Assembly: GCF_004116495.1 (NCBI RefSeq)
Contig: NZ_PDKC01000018.1
Span: 1-58,746 of the forward strand
Reading direction: 5' to 3'
Source: Arcobacter sp. CECT 8985
GTDB taxonomy: Bacteria > Campylobacterota > Campylobacteria > Campylobacterales > Arcobacteraceae
Length of the DNA stretch: 58,746 nucleotides
Part shown: positions 12,901 through 41,576 of the stretch, piece after piece
How the letters are laid out: each line of letters starts with the position of its first letter
How positions within the stretch are numbered: the first letter of the stretch is position 1
The notes under the pieces: model-generated
The model's input: the letters and a program-made list of their open reading frames with translations, nothing else
Told to the model about the DNA's origin: nothing
Database searches by the model: none
Program-made: the position numbers and the translations under genes

Positions 12901-13596
12901 CTATCTATTCATCCAATCAATAATTTGTAAACTAAGATTTTGGGCATCTTCTAAAGGTATATTATGACTATTACCTACTCTACTTTTTATTACAATATTC
13001 TCTAAATTCATTTGCTCTAATTTTGCTATTGAATCATGATTTAACAATCTGTCATTTTTACTAAAATAATAATTTATAGGATGTTTAAGTTTACTTATTT
13101 TTTCGTATAAATCTTCTCTATTTAATGTAGAGGCTAATTGGGCTAAAAATACATCTTTGCCTAAATCTTCATACATTTTTTGTATTAAATCAATTACAAT
13201 TTGATCATCTTTATTCTCTAATAAAGAGATTGCTTTTCTCTTGCCTAACAAAGAAAAGCCATTTTTTTTAATTGCTTCAATTCTATCTTTTCTTCTAAAT
13301 ATCTCAATTGAGTTTGTTTTGCTTGGTGTTCCTGCAAGATTAAAAAGTTTTTTTACTCTATGTGGATATTTTATTGTAAAATATGTAGCAATATAACTTC
13401 CAAGAGAAAAACCTAAAATATTAATTTTTTCATCTTCAATTTGTTCATTTAAAATCTCATTTATTTCATCATAATCTTCACTATTTGGTATTTTGATATA
13501 TACAAATTCAAATTTATCATCTAATAAATGTATTAATCTTTGCCATAATCTCTCATCTGTCATAAGTCCAGGTATTAAATATATTTTCTCTTTCAT
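12901..13596 (-). CDS. Alpha/beta hydrolase
   Basis: This 231-residue hydrolase opens with a strand and oxyanion region (IYLIPGLMTDERLW). The nucleophile elbow is GFSLGSY, a catalytic Asp candidate lies in SKNDRLL, and the catalytic His is in VGNSHNIPL. No signal peptide is seen, so it is cytoplasmic. It resembles small esterases and thioesterases of the alpha/beta-hydrolase superfamily; the substrate is not predictable. The closest upstream sequence to a binding site is GAAGATGAGAG. It is convergent with the acyltransferase and divergent from the YitT gene. Confidence 0.8.
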   Translation of the reverse strand: MKEKIYLIPGLMTDERLWQRLIHLLDDKFEFVYIKIPNSEDYDEINEILNEQIEDEKINILGFSLGSYIATYFTIKYPHRVKKLFNLAGTPSKTNSIEIFRRKDRIEAIKKNGFSLLGKRKAISLLENKDDQIVIDLIQKMYEDLGKDVFLAQLASTLNREDLYEKISKLKHPINYYFSKNDRLLNHDSIAKLEQMNLENIVIKSRVGNSHNIPLEDAQNLSLQIIDWMNR

Positions 13597-37411: not shown

Positions 37412-38119
37412 TTATACAAAAATATCTAAATATGTTGTGTTTATTGAATCTTTATATTTTAGTGTAGAATCATCAAGTCCTAGTCCTTTTTCTAATTGTC
37501 TAATTAATTTTGAACTATCATTTTTATATAAATAATTTTCAATATTAACCATAAAATTTTTTTCAAAATCTTTGTCAGTATTTAATCTTTCATATAATTT
37601 ACTAAAATCTATACTTTCTTTTTCTTTTTCTAGTTCAAAATTTAATTGAAGTTCTTTTTGTTCATTTACACTTTTTTCATAGTAGCTAGCATGAAAAGCA
37701 ATTCTACTAACTTTTGTTTGACCTTCTCTTGTATAGTTTTCATCATCATATGCCAAATGTGTTGTAGTATAATCTACTTGTGCATATATATTATAGTAAT
37801 GTGTTCTTTCATCACCATCATATACAGTGAAGCTATCTTGAGAATTAGATGTTATAGTAAAATCTCCTGAGCCATCTTTCCCATTTTTGAAGTCTTCTAT
37901 TATATCAGAAACTTTTCTTATGCCATTTACAGCATTTTTCAACCAAGGATATTCTTTTAATTGTTCTTTTGTTGCTTCATATTCTTTTCGTTGATTATCT
38001 ACTTCTGAAATAGCAGAATTTATTTTATTTACTGTTTTTTCATCAAGTTTTTGTGCTTTGGGTAAAGGTAATATCTCTTTAAAAGAGTTTAATATGCTGT
38101 TTGAAGAATCTACTATCAT
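37412..38119 (-). CDS. Unknown 235-residue protein
   Basis: This soluble protein has no signal peptide. It has a coiled N-terminal third (about 20-75), a beta-rich middle with FTVYDGDERTHYYNIYAQVDYTTTHLAYDDE (key: YYNIYAQVDYTTTHL) and a helical C-terminal part. No family was recognised. AAAAAGGACTCCT precedes the ATG. It lies on the same strand as the 137-residue protein, with a 213-bp gap that holds nothing recognisable. The pair may have been acquired together. Confidence 0.65.
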   Translation of the reverse strand: MIVDSSNSILNSFKEILPLPKAQKLDEKTVNKINSAISEVDNQRKEYEATKEQLKEYPWLKNAVNGIRKVSDIIEDFKNGKDGSGDFTITSNSQDSFTVYDGDERTHYYNIYAQVDYTTTHLAYDDENYTREGQTKVSRIAFHASYYEKSVNEQKELQLNFELEKEKESIDFSKLYERLNTDKDFEKNFMVNIENYLYKNDSSKLIRQLEKGLGLDDSTLKYKDSINTTYLDIFV

Positions 38120-38224
38120 AGGAGTCCTTTTTAAACTAATAATAAGAATTATATTATTTACATTATTAATAATAGTTTAAATTATATTTAATTTAATGTT
38201 ACCATTTGAAGGATTTGTTATACG

Positions 38225-38443
38225 TTACTTTACCTCTGACAATACTGAAATTCTTTCTACATCTCGGCTAGGAAAATCAGGATTTTCATATACATGCGAC
38301 TAATAAGTTTTTCCCTTTTTTTGTCCAAATTTAGGAAAGAAAAAATCAACATCCTGTGAGAAGAGATCCAAATAACTAGAATCACCACATCTATCTTCTC
38401 GAAATACTTAATTACTAGCTCAACTAAATCATTTTTTTTTCAT
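38225..38443 (-). pseudogene. Decayed SnoaL/NTF2-like gene
   Basis: On the minus strand the remains read, in pieces in different frames: NDLVELVIKYFEKID, then GDSSYLDLFSQDVDFFF and PKFGQKKGK, then a stop, then HVYENPDFPSRDVERIS. These match the start, the DLFxxDVxFxFPKFG core and the end of SnoaL-like NTF2-fold proteins (about 130 residues). One A too many in the run of nine A after the ATG breaks the start; a further frameshift, a stop codon and loss of about 60 middle codons follow. AAGGA and an ATG remain. This is the main content of the gap 38120-38569. Confidence 0.65.
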
Positions 38444-38521
38444 AATCATTCCTTCATTTTTATTAATTTACATATTTCTTTATAATAATTTGTTATGTAA
38501 AAATTGGTTCATTTAAAATCA

Positions 38522-38557
38522 ATGGTTTTATTAACAATATACTATTAATAAAACCAT
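38522..38557. other. Perfect 13-bp inverted repeat after zinc-ribbon gene
   Basis: ATGGTTTTATTAA and TTAATAAAACCAT are separated by ten bases. The hairpin lies about 13 bp after the stop of the zinc-ribbon gene. It has no T run, so it may be a weak terminator or a mobile-element footprint. Confidence 0.5.
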
Positions 38558-38569
38558 AAGCTATATACA

Positions 38570-38767
38570 TCATAAATAAAAAATTGGTGTTATACTTATA
38601 TCTGTAAATGGTGCATAAATAACACTAAAATTAAATAAATGGCCTGTTCTTATATTTTTTTTGCAACTTGGACATTCATAAAAATTACAATTTTTTTTCA
38701 AAATTTGATGAAATAAAATCCATTCCATAGGAATTGTCTTTTCATGACAATTAGGACATTGCTTCAT
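38570..38767 (-). CDS. Small zinc-ribbon-like protein
   Basis: This 65-residue protein carries two CPxC knuckles, CPNCHEKTIP near the start and CPSCKKNI about 30 residues later, the pattern of a zinc ribbon. The rest is hydrophobic and aromatic. I take ATG 38767 because AAAGG lies six bases upstream; the ATG at 38782 overlaps the attC-like site. It begins right after the attC-like element, as a following cassette gene would. Function unknown. Confidence 0.6.
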   Translation of the reverse strand: MKQCPNCHEKTIPMEWILFHQILKKNCNFYECPSCKKNIRTGHLFNFSVIYAPFTDISITPIFYL

Positions 38768-38778
38768 ATTTAACCTTT

Positions 38779-38851
38779 GCATAACGGTTGTCGTGAGCCA
38801 ATACTAAACCCGCTCTTGGTTTTAGTATTGGTTTCCTCGTTTTTGTTATAT
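38779..38851 (-). repeat. attC-like imperfect palindrome
   Basis: Read on the minus strand, this 73-bp element starts with ATATAAC right after the stop of the 199-residue gene. It continues through AAAAACGAGG and a 13-bp stem with one bulge (CCAATACTAAAACC and GGTTTAGTATTGG), and ends with GTTATGC. The order RYYYAAC-like box, L-like box, stem, L-like box, GTTRRRY-like box is that of integron attC sites, although both end boxes deviate from the consensus by one base. No integrase gene is in the window. Confidence 0.55.
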
Positions 38852-39451
38852 TTAGTGATCTTCAAGTTTTTTAATAAAATCACTTCCCACATAGTCCTTA
38901 AATTGATTATATTTAAATCTATAAAATTCATTCCAATAGCTTACGATTCTATCTTTAGTTAATCTCCAATAGCTAGGGTTTTCTTGGATAAACTCTATAT
39001 ATGATTTTACATTGCTTTCATTAATATTTTCATTGATTATATTCAAAATTTCTATTAAATAACTTCCTGCATTAGAAATCATAAAGGGAATGATGAAATA
39101 ATCATCTAACCCTAATAAATTTTCAATTCTTTTTTGTCTTACGTATCCGTCAGAATGACGAGTATAAAGACAATTAAGTATCTTTTTTTGTTGAGAGGTT
39201 AACCTTTCTTCTTTTAATAGGTTTGGTTCATCAAAATATATTCTTGAATTTATTGTTATTAATTCAGTTTCTAATTCAACTTGTTCACCTATTTCATGAA
39301 TATAAGAAATTTCAACACCTAAACAATTTGTTACAGGCTTGTTGATAGGTAAAATTTTAATGACCTGTTTTACATCTAATTCAAGTTTTTTTGGAAAAGA
39401 TTTATAAATTAGTTCTTTAACATCAGAAAGCTTTTGCTTATTATCTTCCAT
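38852..39451 (-). CDS. Unknown protein, possible gene-cassette product
   Basis: This 199-residue soluble protein has no recognised domain. It has a helical N-terminal part, a beta-rich middle (GVEISYIHEIGEQVELETELITINSR, shown only for position) and an aromatic-rich helical C-terminus (YWNEFYRFKYNQFKDYVG). GAAAGGAAAAG precedes the ATG. GTTATAT occurs 21 bases upstream of the ATG, and an attC-like palindrome begins directly after the stop, so gene plus palindrome have the size and layout of a single integron cassette (about 690 bp). Confidence 0.65.
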   Translation of the reverse strand: MEDNKQKLSDVKELIYKSFPKKLELDVKQVIKILPINKPVTNCLGVEISYIHEIGEQVELETELITINSRIYFDEPNLLKEERLTSQQKKILNCLYTRHSDGYVRQKRIENLLGLDDYFIIPFMISNAGSYLIEILNIINENINESNVKSYIEFIQENPSYWRLTKDRIVSYWNEFYRFKYNQFKDYVGSDFIKKLEDH

Positions 39452-39517
39452 CTTTTCCTTTCATCATATAACTATTTATTAGTATTACATTAAAAAAGCA
39501 AAATATTCAAGCTTTAA

Positions 39518-39600
39518 GTAAAATCTGGGGACAGTATACCAATTAATCTAAATTTTTCTTTTATTTCAGTAAAAATCCGGGGACATTATGTATAATTAAA
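39518..39600 (+). repeat. Two copies of an AGTAAAATCYGGGGACA repeat
   Basis: AGTAAAATCTGGGGACAGTA (39518-39537) and AGTAAAAATCCGGGGACATT (39569-39588) lie about 50 bp apart in the same orientation, followed by similar AT-rich text (CCAATTAA and TATAATTAA). Such GGGGACAGTATAC-type sequences are, from memory, common at the ends of Y1/REP-associated transposase genes in other bacteria. No transposase remains here. Confidence 0.5.
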
Positions 39601-39657: not shown

Positions 39658-39909
39658 TTATTGCTGTAAAATCAGCTCATTATCAGTAGGATTTAACTTT
39701 ATTAAAATAACATCATAAAAATAAGCTAACGCCTCAAGTAAGGAACCAATTATAAGAAAAACAAATGATGAATTAATTGGAACATTGTCTAAAAAGAAAC
39801 TTATAATAAGACCTAAAACACAAAGACCTGCCAATAAATGAACAATTCTCAAAAATAATCCTCGTATTAGCATCATAGGGTAAAACAATAACGATTTAAG
39901 TATTTTCAT
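39658..39909 (-). CDS. Small membrane protein of unknown function
   Basis: This 83-residue protein has two membrane helices (about 18-40 and 48-67) with a basic N-terminus (MKILKSLLFYPMMLIRGLFLR). No family is recognised. TTAGGAAATAAAT is a good binding site. It lies between the repeat region and guaA on the minus strand, after a hairpin and a long palindrome. Confidence 0.65.
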   Translation of the reverse strand: MKILKSLLFYPMMLIRGLFLRIVHLLAGLCVLGLIISFFLDNVPINSSFVFLIIGSLLEALAYFYDVILIKLNPTDNELILQQ

Positions 39910-40022: not shown

Positions 40023-40046
40023 GAATAAAAGCTATCGCTTTTATTC
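40023..40046 (-). terminator. Hairpin at the end of guaA
   Basis: GAATAAAAGC, loop TATC, GCTTTTATTC: a perfect 10-bp stem that includes the guaA stop codon. Only short T runs follow, so the longer palindrome downstream may assist. Confidence 0.6.
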
Positions 40047-41576
40047 CCATTCGATAGTTGCTGGTGGTTTAGATGAAATATCATAAACAACTCTATTAAT
40101 CCCATCAACTTCGTTGATGATTCTTCTAGAGATAGTTTCTAATATATCGTGTGGAATATATGCAAAAGTTGCTGTCATTCCATCTGTTGCTTCTACTATT
40201 CTTACACAAACTGTGTTGTCATAAGTTCTGTTATCACCCATAACACCAACAGATTTTACATTTAGCAATACTGTAAATGCTTGCCATGTTTTATCATAGT
40301 ATCCTGTTGATCTAAGAACATCAAGCATAATAACATCTGCTTTTCTTAATAATTCTAAGTCTGGTTTATTTACATCTCCCATAACTCTAATAGCAAGTCC
40401 TGGTCCAGGGAAAGGGTGTCTTCCAATCATATCTTTTGGAAGTCCAAGTTCTAATCCTAAAGCTCTTACTTCATCTTTAAAGATTTCTCTTAATGGCTCG
40501 ATTAATTCAAATGTCATCCAATCAGGTAAGCCACCTACATTGTGGTGAGATTTGATTGTTTTAGAAGGCCCTTTAACAGAAACAGATTCAATAACATCAG
40601 TATAAAGTGTACCTTGAGCTAAGAACTCAATACCATCATGTTTTTTTGCTTCTTTATCAAATACTTCAATAAAAGTTTCACCAATAATTTTTCTTTTTTT
40701 CTCTGGGTCTGTAACTCCAGCTAATCTTTCTAAAAAGATTTCACTAGCATCTACTGTTATTAGGTTTACACCACGTGCAGCAAACATTGTTTCTACTTGT
40801 TCTCTTTCATTTGCTCTTAAAAGTCCATTATCAACAAATACTGGAATTAGTTGTTCACCAATTGCTTCAGCTAAAAGTGTTGCAACTACAGAAGAATCAA
40901 CTCCTCCACTTACACCACAAAGAACTTTTTTATCTCCAACTTTTTCTTGGATTTTTGCAATTTGTTCTTTAGCAAAAGAACCCATATTCCAAGTAGAATC
41001 ACATCCACAAATATGTTTTGCAAAGTTTTTAAGAAGTTTACTACCTTGCTCTGAATGATATACTTCTGGGTGAAATTGAAATGCATATACAAGTCTATTC
41101 ATATCTGCAATTGCAGCATATGGAGAGTTTTCACTTATTGCAATTTTTTCAAATCCTTCTGGGATTTTTTCTACTCTATCTCCATGTGACATCCATACTG
41201 TTTGTCCATCACTTGTATCTTTAAATAGATCACTATCTTTTACGAAATTTAATTTAGCTTTTCCATACTCATGATGAGATGCTGGTATAACACTTCCTCC
41301 GAAATGTTGTGCGATTAATTGCATACCATAACAAATACCTAAAATAGGAAGTCCTAATTCAAAAATTTCACTATCTGGGTGATAAGAGTCTTCTGCATAT
41401 ACAGATGCTGGACCACCACTTAAAATAATCCCTTTAGGAGTTCTTGCTTTAATAGCTTCGATACTTTCACTAAATGGAACAATTTCACTGTATACACCAG
41501 ATTCTCTTAGTTTTCTAGCAATGATTTGTGTATATTGACTACCAAAATCTAATACAACTATTGGCACATGTTTCAT
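40041..41576 (-). CDS. guaA: GMP synthase (glutamine-hydrolysing)
   Basis: This 511-residue enzyme makes GMP from XMP, ATP and glutamine. The glutamine amidotransferase domain has the nucleophile C82 in GICYGMQL and HPE in [10 protein letters not shown]. The ATP-pyrophosphatase domain has the PP-loop GVSGGVDSS, and the C-terminal dimerisation domain has [13 protein letters not shown] and the KPPATIEWE end. Full length. AAGGAATATAATAT precedes the ATG. The gene is monocistronic between hairpins. Confidence 0.98.

Follow-up and report, generated by a model that had tools for sequence, protein, structure and literature searches.

A gene cassette beside guaA in Arcobacter sp. CECT 8985, a probable remnant of a decayed chromosomal integron

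The window analysed here, i.e., the whole stretch of 58,746 bases, contains a cassette that is very probably the last intact one of a sedentary chromosomal integron, by now nearly erased, at the 3' end of guaA, the gene for the glutamine-hydrolysing GMP synthase. This reading is supported at the level of sequence by an attC site, an attI-like site, matching cassette boundaries, a relic of the integrase gene intI, broken neighbouring cassettes, and a graded decay of the same locus in relatives (Table 1).

Table 1. Features of the guaA-side array in the window, listed by position.
Feature	Position	Strand	Basis
235-aa gene flanking the array distally	37412..38119	minus	two similar stretches at the corresponding locus of G001
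Cassette 3 relic, SnoaL-like pseudogene	38224..38446 (approximate ends)	minus	aligned with the intact 141-aa gene of G003
Cassette 2 (zinc-ribbon gene), decayed	38489..38784	minus	homology to G015 and G060
Shortened zinc-ribbon ORF, 65 aa	38570..38767	minus	homologous ORF of G070 has 150 aa
attC site of cassette 1	38779..38851	minus	R1 match, 59.4 bits, E 3.3e-10
Cassette 1, 687 bp, intact	38785..39471	minus	boundaries G/TTATAT and G/TTATGC; own R'' complementary to 5' boundary
199-aa cassette gene	38852..39451	minus	ORF; plasmid homologues
attI-like site, right end merging with the intI relic	39469..39494	minus	26 bp; 2 mismatches to the attI pattern
intI relic, 31 bp	39488..39518	plus	DNA similarity to fossil and intact intI
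guaA, 511-aa ORF; 3' end hosts the integron	40041..41576	minus	NCBIfam NF000848, 807 bits, cut-off 400

The sequence-only reading had described a gene and an attC site laid out as a cassette, and every part of that layout was recovered: on the minus strand, GTTATAT (39472-39466) lies 5' of the 199-aa ORF, which is followed directly at its 3' end by a 73-nt imperfect palindrome running from ATATAAC to GTTATGC. The minus-strand match to an attC model, which it had named as support, was likewise obtained. Up to E 10, this palindrome is the single match in the window to R1, a covariance model of 27 attC sites from integrons of the family, from which the window site was excluded and in which four sites from contig C66 of the window's own genome were included. 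The sites of R1 and of a second model, R2 (12 sites), were hand-picked from regular-expression candidates at loci around intI matches, retaining sites of ~70 or ~130 nt and excluding candidates of ~53–62 and 78–115 nt as well as matches inside genes; the regular expression was written after viewing the window and C66, and therefore is independent of neither. R2 had no match in the window up to E 1, and no Rfam family matched at the cassette 1 attC. When folded as single-stranded DNA, the cassette-sense strand (with 3 and 6 nt of flank) gave z -4.7 and the opposite strand z -4.2, with 0 of 200 shuffles as good in either case.

Further, 26 of 33 cassettes from 13 arrays, two of which belong to the window genome, had a 5' boundary triplet complementary to their own R'', with seven imperfect boundaries among the 33 tested; permuted pairings averaged 2.7 and never exceeded 11 of 33 (5000 permutations). 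The window cassette obeys this rule (GTTATAT versus ATATAAC), and the crossover points place its ends as listed in Table 1. It carries both the imperfect attC hairpin with R'' and R' ends and the boundary complementarity expected of an integron gene cassette. Hairpins are common in AT-rich DNA, and the lack of an Rfam match would also suit a chance palindrome, such as a terminator, behind an ordinary gene, but this explanation is refuted by the R1 score (E 3e-10) and also has the matching boundaries, the attI-like site and the further cassettes against it, so that we give it practically no credence. Judged by model score, hairpin and boundaries, the element is a real integron-type cassette with a genuine attC.

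Cassette 1 abuts an attI-like site, attI being defined here by sequence conservation rather than by a recombination test. The site aligns with nine other attI loci of the genus, including the one beside the intI on C66, and the reversed pattern, used as a control, gives 0–2 matches per genome. As judged by conservation only, the window thus has an attI beside its array. Next to it is the intI relic, 29 of whose 31 bases are identical to a fossil intI beside guaA in G002, with an alignment score of 52 versus 24.1 ± 3.0 for dinucleotide shuffles, none of 1000 reaching the score. None of 1000 shuffles reached the score of the relic with the C66 intI, and 14 of 1000 did with the fossil intI of G001; the relic is also similar to the intact intI at guaA in G068 (90%) and G065 (86%) over 29 bp. 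There is no IntI protein match at the guaA locus of the window, and therefore no full-length intI in cis. The attI-like site and the relic overlap by a few shared bases, and from this arrangement we infer a deletion junction. At 39527-39590 and 39658-39909, the place of the lost part of intI is taken by two similar stretches containing GGGGACA and also by an 83-aa ORF with membrane-protein-like sequence. The motif GGGGACAGTATAC beside the relic was considered as a genome-wide repeat and rejected, as it occurs once exactly and once with a mismatch.

On the other side of cassette 1, two decayed cassettes follow. Cassette 2, with a zinc-ribbon gene, retains R'' of its attC at 38498-38489, the rest of the site being gone. 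It is 94% identical to DNA of G015 over 182 bp, versus 83.7% identity between the guaA genes of the two genomes, and the similarity begins exactly at the crossover point, 38785. Of the 104 family genomes, four others have a homologue of the zinc-ribbon gene, and none was found in the five congeners. In G060, an attC lies on either side of the homologue, and identity to the window extends over 46 bp through R'' of the downstream attC; in G070, an R1 site precedes and an R2 site follows the gene (both genomes belong to another genus); in G073, an attC was detected before the gene only; and in G015, none was found on either side. Relative to G060, the window copy has lost ~170 bp, and the other homologous ORFs are short as well (G060, 56 aa; G015, 27 aa; G073, 48 aa). 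Cassette 3 is a relic of a SnoaL-like gene whose intact 141-aa ortholog lies in the guaA array of the congener G003 (SnoaL_2, PF12680, 31.8 bits, cut-off 27), and ~199 bp of it are missing from the window copy. In the same G003 array (L043:2717-4371), a gene for an EcoRV-type endonuclease adjoins one for a Dam-family methyltransferase.

The guaA locus was compared across the family, where 99 of 104 genomes have guaA at E ≤ 1e-150. The flanks of 95 of these were examined (G042, G043, G044 and G100 were left out), 89 of them at least 1400 bp long and about a quarter only 1500 bp, so that an attI farther away may be missed. An attI with at most two mismatches was present on the guaA strand in 16 of the 95 flanks, with 0 on the opposite strand and 0 with the reversed pattern, and IntI protein matches occurred in 11; most flanks had neither signal. 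At guaA, G065 and G068 have a full-length IntI, G066 and G074 have one in two pieces, and seven genomes (G070, G067, G069, G001, G002, G003 and G038) have a truncated or fragmentary one. For example, G001 (Malaciobacter halophilus) has an attI with a truncated intI, 584 bp in all and 84% identical to the intI-attI of C66, and G002 shares its truncation point and adjoining sequence. The congener G003 has shorter pieces, and two of the five congeners, G004 and G005, have no integron trace at guaA.

A further 11 flanks, that of the window included, have an attI-like or attC-like signal but lack a match to IntI protein. Six of them (the window genome, G037, G041, G063, G073 and, weakly, G071) retain small pieces of intI DNA, and no such piece was found in the other five (G059, G061, G062, G064 and G084). 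The idea that erosion has gone furthest in the window was rejected, given pieces of similarly small size in the other five genomes and the five flanks with none; by these comparisons it is among the most eroded members still recognisable. A single intI truncation common to several genera was also rejected, since intI does not end at the same point in G070 as in G001/G002. In the guaA tree, whose bootstrap had not fully settled, G068 and G069 are sister species, one with a full-length intI and the other with ~10% of it, and no shared sequence was found between them after attI; they thus differ both in intI and in what follows attI, which indicates that both the decay of intI and the turnover of arrays can proceed quickly. 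Taken together, these comparative sequence data identify guaA as a place where integrons recur in the family, in states that range from a full-length intI to almost complete loss.

This setting bears on a second explanation, in which an integrase encoded elsewhere in the genome inserted a single cassette off-target at a secondary site, the kind of site that the sequence-only reading had supposed. No intact intI is present in cis, one frameshifted intI exists on C66, and the comparison with relatives that had been called for shows that none of the five congeners has the 199-aa gene (E ≤ 0.001), all of which would agree with such an insertion. However, the attI-like site that cassette 1 abuts is fused to an intI relic, two more decayed cassettes adjoin cassette 1, and the gene next to the array is a recurrent integron site; we therefore regard off-target insertion as very improbable, and the term secondary site has to be given up. 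The description of the cassette as lone is at best partly right, as cassettes 2 and 3 follow, and the description "without an integrase" is right for an intact adjoining intI and has to be amended for the 31-bp relic and the frameshifted gene on C66.

The intI on C66 is the only other one found in the genome. It is split between two frames, has an insertion of 28 nt when compared with intact relatives, and encloses a palindrome that occurs once in the genome. The intI of G005 has the same split; intI and attI are 96% identical between G000 and G005 (L007:12008-12998, L047), with most flanking stretches at ~84–86%, which suggests, from identity levels, that the two genomes may share an exchanged integrase locus that was already inactivated. 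The C66 integron is bracketed by a direct repeat of ~93 bp (L007:8816-8908 and 13002-13094), which corresponds to the 3' end of a sensor-kinase gene. R1 attC sites are located on C66 (four), C82 (two), C33 (one) and in the window (one), an R2 attC lies at the guaB locus on C11, and six attI-like sites are spread over five contigs of the genome. An attI is present in the recQ-side array on C33. Across the family, 23 of 104 genomes have an intI match at E ≤ 1e-40, a threshold at which the integrase model TIGR02249 matches no control genome; at E 0.001, it matches tyrosine recombinases generally (14 of 14 control genomes). The attI recurs beside or near nucleotide-synthesis genes, i.e., guaA, guaB, purH and carB (L129, L131, L085, L087 at guaB, L134 at purH, and L088, ~5 kb from carB), these gene names coming from NCBIfam in the case of the window, L129, L134 and L088. 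In three species, attI together with ~300–411 bp of upstream DNA (83–93% identical) is present at different loci (L083:5621, L086:5016 and L088:7971), and no intI homology was found.

Alternatively, the guaA intI could have been lost long ago, leaving an orphan attI that was still fed by the IntI of another locus, present or ancestral. The six attI-like sites facing one broken intI, the intactness of cassette 1 beside broken neighbours, and the closer identity to G015 of the zinc-ribbon cassette than of guaA would all fit. Yet guaA-side intI can decay fast, as in the sister species G068 and G069, and therefore capture in cis followed by quick loss suffices; the unlike truncation points of G070 and G001/G002 also weigh against the orphan attI. 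We consider this alternative arguable but unlikely. Similarly doubtful is the broader suggestion that the genus runs a dispersed integron, in which several orphan attI platforms per genome, mostly without an integrase, would be fed by IntI in trans; guaA, guaB, the sensor-kinase locus and others might, equally tentatively, be such platforms. If this were true, the evolving unit would be a network of attI landing sites rather than one intI-attI-array locus.

Under the preferred reading, a decayed integron in cis, IntI would have inserted cassettes at the guaA-side attI by recombination with cassette attC sites, and the 199-aa cassette, being nearest to attI, would be the most recent capture. 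Deletions may then have erased intI except for 31 bp, fused the relic to attI, and broken cassettes 2 and 3. The locus would now be a frozen remnant without intI, from which the 199-aa gene could still be expressed, and cassette 1 would presumably be mobile only with an integrase supplied in trans, a supply limited by the frameshift in the sole further intI found in the genome. A search for promoters around the array gave 12 sites versus 13.4 in shuffles, i.e., no excess.

The cargo of cassette 1 has homologues in eight plasmid records (two of them from one strain), seven of the eight at 27–34% identity and 86–97% query coverage, with hosts in Streptomyces, Streptantibioticus, Bacteroides, Phocaeicola and Burkholderia, that is, in Actinomycetota and Bacteroidota besides Burkholderia. 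In 397 other genomes of its own order, there were three weak matches only. Homologues scattered across plasmids and nearly absent from the order form the pattern of a widely transferred gene. The protein had no match in PADLOC or NCBIfam and only sub-threshold matches in Pfam (best TcaA_2nd, E 7e-4, 20.4 bits versus a cut-off of 26), and no viral relative was found. The one match to a solved structure (E 0.51) was dismissed as meaningless, and the predicted fold is unusable (mean pLDDT 34). In a Bacteroides plasmid record, the homologue adjoins DUF2750 and SMI1/KNR4-type genes. SMI1/KNR4 proteins are often immunity proteins, so one might guess at an immunity-like role for the 199-aa protein.

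A single attC may be all that a model search detects of a former integron, and here comparison with relatives recovers an attI and a 31-bp intI relic in addition. The decay stages at guaA provide a natural series for the rate of integrase loss and for the later change of arrays. The view that such elements are rarely described in this phylum needs qualification, as integrons as such are on record for Campylobacterota in passages of PMC8618304, and intI matches occur in nearly a quarter of the family genomes as given above. Among the open-licence papers found by keyword, no title concerns an integron at guaA or in the genus of the window, which does not establish absence from print, and the recurrent guaA site is possibly undescribed.

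Compared with known systems, the window resembles a CALIN, a cluster of attC sites lacking an integron-integrase, in having an attC-bearing cassette with no integrase nearby (excerpts of PMC9024848 and PMC8618304). It differs in having one detectable attC, whereas the IntegronFinder 2.0 default is two (same excerpts), and in its still recognisable attI and intI relic. As only one window attC passes the models, the element is not callable as a CALIN by the default rule; single-attC CALINs can be genuine according to part of the text of PMC9024848, and the passages of PMC8618304 count intI loss among the proposed origins of CALINs. The guaA integrons of G065 and G068 share with the window the place, the attI type and attC-bearing cassettes, but have a full-length intI reading towards guaA where the window has 31 bp. 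Beyond the family, a close likeness is with Xanthomonas, for which sections of PMC12444791 describe an ancestral integron downstream of ilvD, integrons in 93% of that study's genomes, many integrases inactivated by frameshifts, stops and large deletions, and attC clusters without intI elsewhere. A core biosynthetic host gene, inactivated integrases and intI-less attC clusters are common to both cases. In contrast, the window belongs to a different phylum, its host gene is guaA, its intI is eroded to ~3%, and attI is kept in 16 of 95 guaA flanks of the family, as against the 93% of Xanthomonas genomes with integrons. The window element, in an advanced state of decay, is thus of a known kind, comparable with the integron at Xanthomonas ilvD.
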